Shown piece by piece: positions 1 through 30,324 of a stretch of DNA of 35,978 bases (within the stretch, counting starts at the first letter, position 1; each line of letters starts with the position of its first letter). Both the position numbers and the translations under genes were made by a program. The notes beneath the pieces were generated by a model. It made no database searches, was not told the DNA's origin, and was given only the letters and a program-made list of their open reading frames with translations. This DNA is from a virus, in the IMG/VR virus record IMGVR_UViG_3300019886_000016, positions 1 to 35,978 of that record; one strand, written 5' to 3'.

Positions 1-155
1 CTCCATTAGTAACAGAGGTACAGTTAATTGGAGGACTACCCCCTTCCATCATTGAGCGGGCTAATTGGTCTTCTGTTTCACGAAGAGACTGGCCCAAAGT
101 GCTTACAGCACTGTTGAGGACAGGATCTTCGTTTATGAGCATGCAATTTGTTACT
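1..155 (-). CDS. Major capsid protein, exon 3 (partial, continues past the left edge)
   Basis: The frame reads VTNCMLINEDPVLNSAV, then STLGQSLRETEDQLARSMM, and stays open to base 1. The INEDPVLN and RETEDQLxR segments are hallmark helix regions of N4-gp56-like coat proteins, which assemble the icosahedral shell around the scaffold. A start at the ATG at 142 is unlikely because the homologous protein needs exons 1 and 2 upstream and there is no Shine-Dalgarno. The rest of the gene lies outside the window. Confidence 0.82.
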
Positions 156-529
156 CTACAATTACATGTAGGGCTTAATCATTTCTGTTAAGCTCTGCAA
201 TTTCATTTATATTTGCAGATCCGACTATCGCTTCACTATTACTAGTGTCCACTCGCCTTAGTCTGTCAGGCTGATTTGGATATGAAAGAATTTCATCGAA
301 TGTATGAATAATAGATTCAGATAAAATTGAATCATCATAACCAAAAAAGCATTCTGAAAATGTCATTTTAGTTATAACTTTTCCATTTTCTTTCTTTATT
401 TCCATATCTTGCCCCTTGTTTGCCCATCGGCGGTCCAAGTCAATCAGAGCGGATTTATAGCAGGCCATTTTCACAAAACCTGCTCTTGCAGAATTAGGTA
501 AGTACCATCAATTTACTTACGCTGCAAGA
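156..529 (-). ncRNA. Group I intron 2 in the capsid gene (no endonuclease)
   Basis: A group I core is visible: CAGACTAAGGCGAG (P7 5' strand GACTA, 259-263), a P8 hairpin CACTA-GTAA-TAGTG with a GNRA loop (234-247), and GCGATAGTCGG (P7 3' strand, 223-227), very like the T4 td core. Three 3' hairpins follow: CTGCAA/TTGCAG, GCTTAA/TTAAGC and CTACA/TGTAG. Near the 5' end are stems GTAAGTA/TACTTAC, CTTGCAG/CTGCAAG and AGCAGG/CCTGCT. The boundaries are less certain than for intron 1, because the best U-before and G-at-end choice (529 and 156) has no convincing P1. The 99-codon frame at 175-474 runs straight through the core and looks accidental. Confidence 0.75.
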
Positions 530-702
530 AGATTGGCATGGCATTCAAACCAATCAATTCTAGCATCAATATCAAGCGCAGTAAGCTGCTGAGCAGCTGG
601 GTTTACAATACCATTACCAAGAGGCACTGGTGCTGTTAGTAGGTTTTTATATCTACGTCTACGTAGAATATCGCCTGCTTGTTGATCCATAGTAATGGGA
701 TA
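530..702 (-). CDS. Major capsid protein, exon 2
   Basis: The exon starts at YPITMDQQAGD, directly after the last base of intron 1, and continues through RRRRYKNLLTAPVPL and ALDIDARIDWFECHANL. This is the conserved N-arm and first beta region of N4-gp56/P22-like capsids. The open frame runs four codons further and stops at 517-519, but capsid homologues go straight on from this point to a VLNxA segment that is found here only after 155. The exon end at 530 is chosen because it leaves a U before the intron, keeps phase with exon 3 and gives the expected residue count. The exact junction is uncertain by about 15 nt. Confidence 0.8.
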
Positions 703-1400
703 CACGCTGTTACTTTTTGACCTAGTAAACTAGGCGGAGGGTCTTGTTATTCCCCTCTCATACGCTCTCACGTATGTTCAGACTATATCATCACCTTTCG
801 GCGTTTGGCGTGTAGTCGTTGAGCGTTCTAGAATTTTGAATGCCTCGAATTTCTTCACAAAGGATTAACTCTCTTTCGCTGTATCTTATTCCATGAAAAC
901 CAGTCATTTGATTATCTCTTATTTTACAAAATTCCATAATCTTCTCTGCTTTCAATCTTTTCTCACATCTTAGCTCTTCAACTATCCATGAGATGAATGA
1001 GATACATCTTTTCATTCCAATTATATGAAGTTGCCAACTTTCTTTGTGAGTCGGTTGACGTTTACCTCTATAATATGATCTGAACTCTATTTTATTCTCT
1101 TTGAGAATCCTTTCTAATTCTTTCATAAGCATTGGATCAGTGTTGCTAATACAACAAGAAGGTATATATCGGTAAATTTCTTCACCTTTAACAATTCTCT
1201 TACCTTTAACTAAGGTAAAAGATCCTTCACCTTCCATGATTCCCGCGAACCATGCTTTATCCTTTTCTAATCTTCGCTGCTGATTGTCCATATATCCCCT
1301 GAATTTTCACAATGTAATTGGCGGTCAATTACAGTGTACCAGAAGGCTTTAGGAGTTTCCAGCAAATAGCCAAATTTTACATGGGCAATCCCTATTCTTT
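703..1400 (-). ncRNA. Group I intron 1 in the capsid gene
   Basis: The intron is 698 nt. Sequence evidence: P1 between the exon end AUGGGU and the internal guide GCCCAU; a P7 helix GACTA (813-817) with TAGTC (781-785) in the usual contexts CAACGACTACACG and GATATAGTCTGAAC; a P8 hairpin CGCC-GAAA-GGTG between them; P9-type hairpins CATACG/CGTATG (759-776) and CCTAG/CTAGG. The last base is G at 703. P10 is supported because AUCCC at the start of exon 2 pairs with GGGAU just upstream of the P1 guide strand. Joining 1401 to 702 keeps the reading frame. It encodes the LAGLIDADG protein at 791-1291. Confidence 0.9.
791..1291 (-). CDS. Intron-encoded LAGLIDADG homing endonuclease
   Basis: The 166-aa protein has one LAGLIDADG-type motif, FAGIMEGEGSF, at about residues 15-25. 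Single-motif members work as homodimers and cut intronless alleles so that the intron spreads. The start has a GGGG Shine-Dalgarno, and the gene lies wholly inside group I intron 1. Its last codons, which encode TLNDYTPNAER, are also the conserved R element (5' strand of P7) and part of P8, and the stop falls between the two P7 strands, so protein and ribozyme sequence constrain each other. Most phage group I introns carry GIY-YIG or HNH enzymes, so a LAGLIDADG gene is less usual. The family call is firm; activity is inferred. Confidence 0.92.
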   Translation of the reverse strand: MDNQQRRLEKDKAWFAGIMEGEGSFTLVKGKRIVKGEEIYRYIPSCCISNTDPMLMKELERILKENKIEFRSYYRGKRQPTHKESWQLHIIGMKRCISFISWIVEELRCEKRLKAEKIMEFCKIRDNQMTGFHGIRYSERELILCEEIRGIQNSRTLNDYTPNAER

Positions 1401-1508
1401 ACCCATCGTTGTATGAATCAAATCAGGCATAGGACGAGCGAGCAATTTCATCGAAAGCTGTTGTTGTACAGCTGGCGGTAAAATTGAGGTTGTAGTAGGT
1501 CCACTCAT
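1401..1508 (-). CDS. Major capsid (coat) protein, exon 1
   Basis: This is the N-terminal exon, 36 codons, starting MSGPTTTSILPPAVQQQLSM and ending in HTTMG. A GGAGA Shine-Dalgarno lies just before the ATG at 1508. The frame reaches a stop two codons after MG, although capsids of this N4/P22-like family normally continue here. The exon ends in AUGGGU, which pairs with GCCCAU (1381-1386) inside the following intron, giving a 6-bp P1 helix with the conserved terminal U·G. That fixes the 5' splice site at 1401/1400. The residues LLARPMPDLIHTTMG are typical of the first part of these capsid proteins. The gene follows the scaffold gene, the normal order. Splicing itself is inferred, not shown. Confidence 0.85.
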
Positions 1509-6769: not shown

Positions 6770-6925
6770 ATGCGTAAAGAAGTTTATTCTTTACTTCATT
6801 CATGCACTGATAAAATGCAAACCAAAACTATGATTGAAATGTTATGCAATGTAATTATTGATATGAATAAAAGGATTCAAGATTTAGAGAGGAAAGATGG
6901 ATCAAGAGAAATTAATTTTAGCTGA
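6770..6925 (+). CDS. 51-aa hypothetical protein, 5' end uncertain
   Basis: From ATG 6770 it reads MRKEVYSLLHSCTDKMQTKT to KDGSREINFS. The frame is open back to about 6709 without an ATG (…LDEEKRKEWESLEPS), so the real start may be lost or non-standard. Its 3' end overlaps, antisense, the end of the HNH gene by 24 nt. Confidence 0.4.
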   Translation: MRKEVYSLLHSCTDKMQTKTMIEMLCNVIIDMNKRIQDLERKDGSREINFS

Positions 6926-6959
6926 TTTCCTTCTATTCTCTTCTTTAGTGAGGTACTGA
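6897..6959 (+). pseudogene. Possible truncated gene start (20 codons)
   Basis: GAGAGGAAAG precedes an ATG opening MDQEKLILADFLLFSSLVRY, then a stop. The start region is good but the frame dies after entering sequence that is the 3' end of the HNH gene on the other strand. This suggests a gene cut by arrival of the HNH segment; it may also be chance. Confidence 0.3.
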
Positions 6960-7312
6960 AGGTTTGAAAGACAATGCTTTCCACCTTTAGCAATTGGAAT
7001 GATATGATCTACTTCATATCCTTGAGGACAATTCTTATAAAATCTTCCGATCAACTTCTTTTCTTGCCAAGATAGATCAGCACATGCAGATTTAAATTTA
7101 CCCCTTCTTGATGCATTACGTTTGCTACATGCATAAGCTCCTTTTTCTTGAATATAATATTTCTTAACACATTTTTGATGTAATTCAGGGTTGTCTCGAT
7201 TCCATTTATTGTTTTTAAAAATACATTCTTTCTGATATTGTATAACATATTCCTGAAAATCTTTTTTCTTTGTCCGCTTAATTAAGTCTAGAATATCGTT
7301 AGTGTTATCCAT
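6902..7312 (-). CDS. HNH endonuclease (free-standing, homing type)
   Basis: The 136-aa protein has a C-terminal HNH domain: EVDHIIPIAKGGKHCLSNLQYL at about residues 100-121 followed by EENRRKS, with the metal-binding DH and N-L-Q elements. The N-terminal part is Lys-rich and contains the WNRDNPEL segment seen in this nuclease group. It lies downstream of TerL between 12-bp direct repeats. Such free-standing enzymes spread into related phages by cutting near their own site; activity is inferred. Confidence 0.88.
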   Translation of the reverse strand: MDNTNDILDLIKRTKKKDFQEYVIQYQKECIFKNNKWNRDNPELHQKCVKKYYIQEKGAYACSKRNASRRGKFKSACADLSWQEKKLIGRFYKNCPQGYEVDHIIPIAKGGKHCLSNLQYLTKEENRRKSAKINFS

Positions 7313-11444: not shown

Positions 11445-11533
11445 TGGATCTTAGCTCACTGGTAGAGCATTTGCGTTAGGTTATTACTAGTTTCATGGCG
11501 TAAAGGTAGAGGGTTCGATTCCCTCAGATCCAA
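11445..11533 (+). tRNA. tRNA-like gene with an enlarged anticodon region (isotype unresolved)
   Basis: Clear tRNA parts: a perfect 7-bp acceptor TGGATCT (11445-11451) / AGATCCA (11526-11532) plus discriminator A; TA at positions 8-9; D arm GCTC-ACTGGTA-GAGC; T arm GAGGG-TTCGATT-CCCTC. The anticodon part is abnormal: TTTGCG pairs with CGTAAA around about 23 nt instead of a 7-nt loop. Inside, GTTAG-GTTATTA-CTAGT could form a second stem-loop. A Leu-type loop GTTAGGT can be read but its stem does not pair. It may be interrupted, a type II tRNA I cannot fold, or a decoy. Confidence 0.6.
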
Positions 11534-18747: not shown

Positions 18748-18909
18748 TTATTTTCCTTTTTTCTTTGAAATACCAGCTTCACTCAGAGAAATAGCTAAAG
18801 CTTGAGATCTGCTTTTAACTAATGGTCCTTTCTTTGAACCGCTGTGAAGTTTATTTTTTTCAAATTCTCTCATAACTTTGCTAATTTTTTTCTGTTTTTT
18901 GTCTTTCAT
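18748..18909 (-). CDS. DUF6496-family small protein
   Basis: The 53-aa protein is MKDKKQKKISKVMREFEKNK, LHSGSKKGPLVKSRSQALAI then SLSEAG. The KxSKVMxEF…LHSGSK.GP.VKSR.QA.AI.LSEA pattern is a widespread small phage/bacterial family of unknown function. The start follows AGAGGATT and overlaps the end of the endonuclease VII gene by 29 nt. Confidence 0.8.
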   Translation of the reverse strand: MKDKKQKKISKVMREFEKNKLHSGSKKGPLVKSRSQALAISLSEAGISKKKGK

Positions 18910-19378
18910 AATCCTCTAAATATTTTATTGTATTTTTCAATATTTCAGTAGAATCCTTGGACATTCCTAAAATTGTATTGCATCTCGAACAAATCCATCC
19001 TCGAAATTCATTAGTGAGGTGATCATGATCCCAAACAATACCTTTTATAGTAGGTAATTTTCCGCATATTTCACATTTTTCAGGTCTTGGTCTAGTCGCA
19101 GAATTTTCTCTTTTTTCTTTAAGTTTTATTTTTGCTAAATCCCTACAATATTTTCTTCTATAATCTGTTTTTCCATATTGTCTAGCTCTTTCTAAAACTT
19201 TTTCTCTATTATAATAATAATATACTTTATTTTTTTTGTTATAACATTCCTTACAACCAGGTCGTATACCTTCTTTATTCTGCGATTGCTTTGGAAACAT
19301 TTCTATTGAAAATTCTTTTTTGCAATCAATACATATTTTCTTACCATCTTTTATAGGATATAGCGGAGTCCAGGGCAT
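18881..19378 (-). CDS. Recombination endonuclease VII-like protein
   Basis: The 165-aa protein has a zinc site (CIDCKKEFSIEMFPK…CKECY, about 16-47) and an endonuclease VII/HNH domain: CEICGKLPTIKG, WDHDH (116-120), FRGWICSRCNTILGM, ILKNTIKYLEDY. T4 gp49 resolves branched DNA before packaging; smaller relatives like this may act as homing or nicking enzymes. An AGAGGAAG site precedes the ATG. It ends in TAG. Confidence 0.85.
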   Translation of the reverse strand: MPWTPLYPIKDGKKICIDCKKEFSIEMFPKQSQNKEGIRPGCKECYNKKNKVYYYYNREKVLERARQYGKTDYRRKYCRDLAKIKLKEKRENSATRPRPEKCEICGKLPTIKGIVWDHDHLTNEFRGWICSRCNTILGMSKDSTEILKNTIKYLEDYERQKTEKN

Positions 19379-29570: not shown

Positions 29571-29633
29571 ACATGCCTAGGATCGCTTCCGAAAAACTGC
29601 TTCTGACAGTTTGGCATGTCATTTCATTCAGAA
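29571..29633. repeat. Nested inverted repeats upstream of the HNH gene
   Basis: ACATGCC (29571-29577)/GGCATGT (29613-29619) and TTCTGA (29601-29606)/TCAGAA (29628-29633), plus a direct repeat GAAAAACT. They lie in the gap between the ejection genes and the plus-strand HNH gene and may regulate it or mark the insertion site. Confidence 0.45.
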
Positions 29634-29649
29634 AAACTACAGAGGTTTT

Positions 29650-30324
29650 ATGGAATTCAATTGCGCTCATTGCAAAAAACATTTTTCTCGTGATTTTCAA
29701 AAGAAAAATCAAATAAATAACTTTTGTTCTAAAGATTGTTATACAAAATTTAAAAACCAAGAAGTTACATGTGAATATTGCAATAAAAAATTTACTATTT
29801 GGAAATCAAAATCGGATCGTAGAACATGTTCTAAGAAATGTTATTACAATTTAAGGTTTGGTGAAAAACTAGAATTTTGCTCAATATGTTTAATAAAAAA
29901 AACATGTCATTACAGACAACATTGTATTCAATGTTATAGAGATAAATTTTATTCTATACCTGAAAATAAACAATATAGGAATTTAAAGGATAGAAATAAT
30001 TATCGAAATGAAAAGGGAATTCCTTTAGATTTACCTCCTTTGAAAGCTCCAGCAGGGGCTGGATATATTCACGCAGGATATAAAAAAATATCTGTAAATG
30101 GAAAGGGAACTCCTGAACATCGTTATGTTATGAGTGAACATTTAAATCGTCCATTAACTAAATATGAGCAAGTTCATCACATGAATGGAGATAAATTAGA
30201 CAACCGAATAGAAAACCTAGAATTATGGAATACAAGCCAACCTCCTGGACAGAGAGTAGAAGACAAGATTTCATTCTATAAAGAATTTTTAGAACAGTAT
30301 GGATACAAGGTAATCAAAGAATGA
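29650..30324 (+). CDS. HNH endonuclease with N-terminal zinc fingers
   Basis: The start is at MEFNCAHCKKHFSRDF, after AGAGG (224 aa). The first 120 residues hold several CxxC sites (CAHC, CSKDC, CEYC, CSKKC, CSIC, CIQC), then a C-terminal HNH domain: EHRYVMSEHLNRPLTKYEQV, HHMNGDKLDNRIENLELW (about 175-192). Many phage HNH enzymes share the EHRxVxE…HHxNGxxxDNRxENLxL pattern. It interrupts the minus-strand tail operon on the opposite strand, as mobile genes do. Confidence 0.9.
   Translation: MEFNCAHCKKHFSRDFQKKNQINNFCSKDCYTKFKNQEVTCEYCNKKFTIWKSKSDRRTCSKKCYYNLRFGEKLEFCSICLIKKTCHYRQHCIQCYRDKFYSIPENKQYRNLKDRNNYRNEKGIPLDLPPLKAPAGAGYIHAGYKKISVNGKGTPEHRYVMSEHLNRPLTKYEQVHHMNGDKLDNRIENLELWNTSQPPGQRVEDKISFYKEFLEQYGYKVIKE

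Follow-up and report, generated by a model that had tools for sequence, protein, structure and literature searches.

Group I introns are known from phage capsid genes, as in the capsid intron of LittleE, a mycobacteriophage of cluster J (PMC3706429), and cases have been described in which two group I introns bring about the skipping of a very short exon, of 23 nt in Twort orf142 and of 34 nt in Coxiella 23S (PMC10136302). An engineered derivative of the Tetrahymena group I ribozyme, the spliceozyme, is able to excise an intron lying between two splice sites (PMC4094466). In yeast, the HAC1u intron is read in frame when the mRNA is left unspliced, giving the product a C-terminal degron (PMC5114014), and the terminal Ala-Ala of the ssrA tag, which in E. 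coli reads AANDENYALAA, is the main element recognised by ClpXP (PMC7652416). The phage capsid gene described here bears some likeness to each of these systems. Like LittleE-type autonomous introns, its intervening sequences lie in a capsid gene, have an exon U and an intron-final G at their ends and are associated with homing endonucleases; however, whereas each LittleE-type intron has a core of its own, one of those found here, a mini-intron of 40 nt, has none. As with the spliceozyme, the arrangement suggests that an intron with no core of its own is excised by a single group I ribozyme, but the spliceozyme is engineered, acts in trans and carries the guide in the ribozyme, whereas the system proposed here would be natural, would act in cis and would carry the guide in the mini-intron.

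The window, by which we mean the whole stretch of DNA analysed, is the complete IMG/VR virus record IMGVR_UViG_3300019886_000016 (35,978 bases). A Pfam search of its ORFs identified a tailed phage with a P22-type portal, whose major capsid protein (MCP) gene lies on the minus strand and runs off window position 1. No close relative was found among named phages, where the best capsid identity was 26%, and no match to the phage was found among bacterial genomes. IMG/VR contained 71 loci with a capsid close to that of the window, and later scans added further loci; about fourteen of the relatives' loci are intron-free and encode a capsid of 320 residues. The record is broken inside the intron-rich capsid gene (window positions 1 and 35978). 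In relatives the capsid gene adjoins a gene of 360 aa, and an open frame at 35977 matches residues 232-358 of this neighbour; the genome is thus likely to be close to complete, lacking just the neighbour and the 3′ part of the capsid gene. Comparison with two relatives revealed no visible interruption in the window's other structural genes; in one relative (G003:C1:36031-37346) the terminase frame is broken by a stop or frameshift, with no intron-sized gap. Free-standing ORFs of HNH and endonuclease VII type (Pfam) lie between conserved phage genes at 6902-7312 (−), 18881-19378 (−) and 29611-30324 (+). The window also carries a tRNA-like gene at 11445-11533 (+), called tRNA-Stop(TTA) by ARAGORN and scoring 49 bits in Rfam, with about 18 extra bases in its anticodon loop, which could be degenerate, a suppressor or interrupted.

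Exon boundaries were placed by spliced alignment, in which the intron-free coding sequence of relatives was aligned to each locus with long gaps allowed. This divides the window's capsid gene, all on the minus strand, into exon 1 (1508-1401; CDS 1-108), whose protein is 100% identical to that of intron-free relatives, exon 2 (702-549; CDS 109-262), which ends at 549 in GATTGG T, an exon 3 of only 31 nt (508-478; CDS 263-293), which encodes (Y)GTYLILQEQV as in intron-free relatives, and exon 4 (143-1; CDS 294-436), which is cut by the contig end. Between them lie three intervening sequences (1400-703, 548-509 and 477-144), and the corrected splicing restores DWYGTYLILQEQVMLINEDP, as in relatives. 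The initial annotation had described a three-piece gene with two introns, and its minus-strand interruption and exon 1 (1508-1401) hold; its other two pieces, 702-530 and 155 to beyond 1, need redrawing. What it took for a second intron at 529-156 resolves, on alignment to intron-free relatives, into breaks at 548-509 and 477-144, and the tail FECHANL that it gave to exon 2 and the VTN with which it began the last exon are intron sequence rather than capsid, the 40-nt middle insert having been split between its ‘exon 2’ and ‘intron 2’. Its suggestion that group I introns had repeatedly invaded this gene proved understated, as introns occur in relatives at ten positions of the CDS (about 108, 233, 262, 293, 315, 353, 399, 435, 546 and 654), with up to four in a single copy of the gene; the proposed reliance of the mini-intron on its neighbour and the degradation-like tags, both described below, do not figure in it. 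The spliced CDS was stop-free in every relative aligned, and the interrupted gene structure is therefore more than chance.

The first intron (1400-703, −), at CDS site 108, which is occupied in 31 loci, carries the features previously ascribed to it. Its P1 helix, AUGGGU.GCCCAU, pairs 1406-1401 with 1386-1381 and places a U.G at the splice site, P10 pairs 1392-1388 with 701-697, a group I core is present and the last base is G. Within it lies an ORF for a 166-aa LAGLIDADG homing endonuclease (791-1291, −; PF14528, 23.2 bits against a cut-off of 22.5). The Rfam group I model RF00028 gave 33.4 and 21.5 bits, below its gathering score of 50 bits, the 33.4-bit match having an E-value of 2.3e-6 in 1600 bases.

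The 40-nt mini-intron at CDS site 262 (548-509, −) has counterparts of 36-51 nt, making 22 loci in all. In all 22 the insert starts after the U of GATTGGT and ends in G, its junction is unique, and its removal restores the capsid motif DWYG. A P1 of the form GAUUGGU.GCCAAUC, with a U.G at the junction, is likewise present in every locus; in the window it pairs 555-549 with 537-531, the U.G lying at 549, and the last base is G509. Because this P1 is invariant it offers by itself no covariation evidence. Immediately 5′ of GCCAAUC is CCRU, or a one-base variant of it, which pairs with the first four exon bases, AYGG, to form a P10 (541-538 with 508-505 in the window). This P10 has 4 bp in 21 of 21 sequences and includes a compensatory change: the guide base is A where the Tyr codon is UAU and G where it is UAC, in all 21, so that an A-U/G-C exchange follows the Tyr codon (8/13). 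In addition, the 3′ half of the insert and the downstream exon form two stems (alpha, 528-522 with 491-485; beta, 520-514 with 504-498) that change together, largely via synonymous codons.

Across the 21 sequences, 98.0% of the cells in these helices were paired, compared with 93.4% in shuffles; nine pairs showed double changes, compared with 4.0, and the covariation score was 0.157, compared with 0.064 (reached in 0 of 500 shuffles). Structures slid out of register were at most 45% paired. RNAalifold recovered the same nested helices, as did single-sequence folding of the window RNA (z = −3.8). A group I catalytic core (P3-P9, with the G-binding site in P7) is absent from the mini-inserts, and a length of 36-51 nt leaves no room for one. 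By its sequence, the mini-insert is group I-like at its ends and would not be an autonomous member of the group. In sister-clade capsids, the top 80 matches are contiguous over nearly the full length. Matches to the mini pattern in a further 10 contigs were set aside as chance, having no alignment to capsid. Read-through by stop suppression, using the tRNA-like gene at 11445, was considered and rejected, as the inserts of the window and of four other loci, at 40 or 50 nt, shift the frame.

The third intervening sequence (477-144, −; 334 nt), at CDS site 293, begins 31 nt downstream of the mini-intron. Rfam gave no match to RF00028 on 477-144, at gathering and E-value thresholds, nor on the interval 156-529 originally proposed; because the model is weak on intron 1 as well, Rfam could not settle this intron and we used comparative counts of P3 and P7 pairs instead. 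In the window, P1 pairs 483-478 with 465-460, P3 pairs 453-447 with 254-248, P7 pairs 263-259 with 227-223, and the last base is G144. Among 20 relatives, pairing was seen in 132 of 140 P3 cells, with three unrelated sequence types represented, and in 120 of 120 P7 cells, where C-G, G-C and A-U pairs replace one another. P1 is present in all 21 introns, which have the U and G ends and a P10, and the guide base adjoining P1 matches the third base of the Val codon in about 18 of 20. These data indicate that the 293 introns, which in relatives range from 198 to 785 nt, have a group I core. Small ORFs of 53-97 aa with no resemblance to endonucleases lie inside several of them (L040, L042, L058, L060, L064, L066, L099 and the window, at 175-474 on the minus strand, where the ORF overlaps the ribozyme), and several overlap ribozyme P3-P8 in frame (..QPDRLRRVDT.SEAIVGSANI..).

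The two inserts are found together. Among 74 loci covering the region, 21 have both the mini-intron and the 293 intron, 52 have neither and none has one of the two alone; the twenty-second mini locus, L036, is cut off within its 293 intron. The remaining locus of the 74, L063, has a full group I intron of 689 nt at the exact site of the mini-intron, with the same P1, and lacks the 293 intron. On a tree of the remaining capsid gene, the pair changed state about 19 times, and the two changed together in 11 of 11 well-supported independent comparisons (p = 0.001). Site 108 changed state 18 times on the same tree, showing that introns of this gene are freely gained and lost. The L063 endonuclease is 81-86% identical to four endonucleases of 293 introns and at most 30% identical to those of other sites, and a distant capsid gene (L177, 30% identity) has, 5 nt away from site 262, an ordinary intron with an endonuclease of the same family. 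The best reading is that the mini-intron and the 293 intron would have spread as one cassette, and the simplest history would be that an intron at 262 kept its ends there while its body became lodged at 293, and that the two now home together. Functional need may nevertheless not account for all of the co-occurrence, part of which may reflect co-transfer (co-conversion) during homing across the 31 nt.

A second feature of these introns is revealed by reading each of them in frame from the upstream exon to the first stop. In the window, leaving the mini-intron unspliced would add FECHANLLAA to the MCP fragment before a TAA at 519-517 (tag and stop, 548-517, −). Ala-Ala, the C-terminal feature of an ssrA-like ClpXP degron, directly precedes the first in-frame stop in 60 of the 111 distinct introns of the capsid gene family, compared with 0 of 111 in each of the other frames (0/222) and a background of 11 among 3,426 other stops. 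When sites 108 and 293 are set aside, the figure is 59 of 63 distinct introns, mostly LLAA or LIAA, and the final residue is Ala in all 63. The distinct mini-introns end in -AA in 19 of 20 cases, the remaining one ending in LVA, and five minis reach -AA through a different stretch near their 5′ end. Site 108 introns, from which a capsid fragment of only about 37 residues would result, have no tag and stop almost at once. At site 293 the tag is lacking in 20 of 21 introns and present in one. This absence is to be expected if the upstream mini-intron always supplies a tag in unspliced RNA and is not removed while the 293 intron stays in place, and it thus argues independently for joint removal of the two. 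The Ala-Ala tags are encoded by 34 different codon strings and lie at varied positions in the RNA, including the P1 loop, the mini loop, the mini stem and the P5/P6 region, implying that it is the peptide and not the RNA that is conserved.

Scans of DNA using the conserved intron start together with tag-coding sequence as the query found 80 contigs (L264-L337), with LLAA or LIAA tags in strongly diverged capsid genes and in one portal-like gene (L313). All 69 distinct tagged introns were in frame with the upstream exon, a count that independently tests only the link to an open exon, since stops in the conserved 5′ core of the intron shut the other two frames. Of 62 testable exons, 58 were capsid homologues, mostly far diverged, with only 11 at 80% identity or more. 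Candidate tags of this kind are thus found beyond the window's close relatives. A CDS 233 intron (L068:1176-1378) encodes an in-frame tag, ..GQAEHYALAA, much like the DENYALAA end of E. coli ssrA. The likeness lies in the LAA or AA end, with AEHYALAA in this one intron; the ssrA tag, however, is encoded by tmRNA whereas the intron tag is encoded by an intron in cis. HAC1u differs in being eukaryotic, spliced by Ire1 and dependent on Duh1, whereas here phage group I introns carry an ssrA-like Ala-Ala end. The tags and their dependence on frame are observed, and from them we infer that tag-driven degradation should follow: capsid fragments made from unspliced RNA would be routed to ClpXP-type proteolysis, and the tags would be a safety device for an assembly protein of very high abundance.

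Taking these comparative sequence data together, the best explanation, to which we assign a probability of about 75%, is that the mini-intron at 548-509 is a non-autonomous group I intron removed by the 293 ribozyme, and that it and nearly all other introns of this capsid gene family carry in-frame degradation tags. The anatomy of the mini-intron, its covariation, its obligate pairing with the 293 intron and the exact restoration of the protein are observations; we infer from them splicing itself, the 293 core as its catalyst and the order of steps. As the sole group I core always present in cis, the 293 intron is the most likely catalyst. The ancestor of the mini-intron would have lost its entire catalytic core while retaining the elements required at splice sites, namely a P1 in which G pairs with the exon U, a P10 that aligns the 3′ exon, and G as the last base. 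The conserved hairpin formed by the 3′ half of the mini-intron and the 31-nt exon would present the mini-intron's 3′ splice site in a loop shortly before the 293 intron. The 293 ribozyme would dock the mini P1 in place of its own and cut after GAUUGGU, the mini-intron's final G, displayed in the hairpin loop, would serve ligation, and the ribozyme would then excise itself via its own P1, so that removal of both inserts would yield a ligated message for DWYGTYLILQEQVML. In broader terms, we think it quite probable that this is a natural cassette of one ribozyme and two introns, with a piece of exon, in a family whose capsid introns generally encode in-frame degrons. The likeness to Twort and Coxiella is that two intervening sequences flank a very short exon and that the introns would cooperate; in those cases, however, each intron has a core and skipping of the exon results, whereas here one is core-less and splicing from the 5′ site at 262 directly to the 3′ site at 293 was rejected, since leaving out 31 nt breaks the frame.

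The nearest competitor, which we regard as unlikely, also has the mini-intron excised in group I fashion but by another catalyst, either another intron of the transcript acting in trans or a protein enzyme, with co-occurrence reflecting co-conversion during homing. A spacing of 31 nt makes co-conversion expected, and engineered group I ribozymes do act in trans (PMC4094466); but at least 10 mini-bearing loci have no intron upstream of the mini-intron, leaving the 293 core as the only one always there, none of the 22 loci has lost the 293 intron while keeping the mini-intron despite free gain and loss of introns in the gene, and the absence of tags at 293 implies joint removal. It is very unlikely that the insert remains in the RNA and is hopped over by ribosomes, as is the 50-nt gap of T4 gene 60. 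The two are alike as short inserts in a phage gene near a mobile endonuclease, the T4 gene 60 gap being likewise linked to a homing endonuclease, and the mini-introns are of similar size, have stem-loops around both ends, hold an in-frame stop and in 22 of 22 loci follow an Asp codon GAT, with a GAY just ahead of the point of resumption. A hop from GAT to GAY between sites for the same tRNA would, however, yield a product lacking Trp-Tyr, both of which splicing restores and of which the Tyr is conserved down to 50% identity, and the insert itself interrupts the Tyr codon. The gene 60 element stays in the RNA and has no P1, P10, final G or ribozyme partner, whereas the mini-intron has the group I hallmarks P1, P10 and final G, and its P10 covaries with the Tyr codon; moreover, L063 carries its full 689-nt intron at the same site, and bypass would leave the obligate pairing with the 293 intron unexplained.

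More sceptical readings concern the gene and its tags. That Ala-Ala before stops is a by-product of conserved intron RNA structure, with no degron role, has in its favour that many tags share one core region, from the P4 5′ strand to P6; against this stand the diversity of codon strings and of structural places, the untagged introns of the same family at 108 and 293 and the complete absence of tags from the other frames, and we consider it improbable. The insert-bearing copies come from metagenome contigs, some of which end within the gene, and could in principle be dead pseudogenes or assembly artefacts, but with 22 diverged contigs from many metagenomes, spliced CDSs that are all stop-free, a conserved protein and compensatory changes in the RNA, we find this barely credible. 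Least weight of all, effectively none, falls on the ordinary arrangement as first read, in which both introns would be autonomous group I elements and 529-156 would be the second of them. That interval does contain an open frame and a 3′ half that looks group I-like, yet this splicing yields CHANLVTNCML and not the conserved WYGTYLILQEQVML, it places the real exon 3 within the proposed intron and it leaves the proposed P1 nearly without exon pairing.

In the open-access literature, we found core-less group I introns that depend on another ribozyme only in engineered systems, no natural example relying on a neighbour, and no report of intron-encoded degrons in bacteria or phages; blastn of the intron core against named phages gave no match. 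The loss of a core together with reliance on a shared one is a step that has been postulated in the origin of spliceosomal introns, and the mini-intron and 293 intron would, if this is true, be a simple natural arrangement of core sharing in cis. The tags, in turn, suggest that introns of bacterial viruses carry their own quality control against messages left unspliced. This would help to explain why one copy of a gene whose product is a highly expressed assembly protein can bear as many as four introns.
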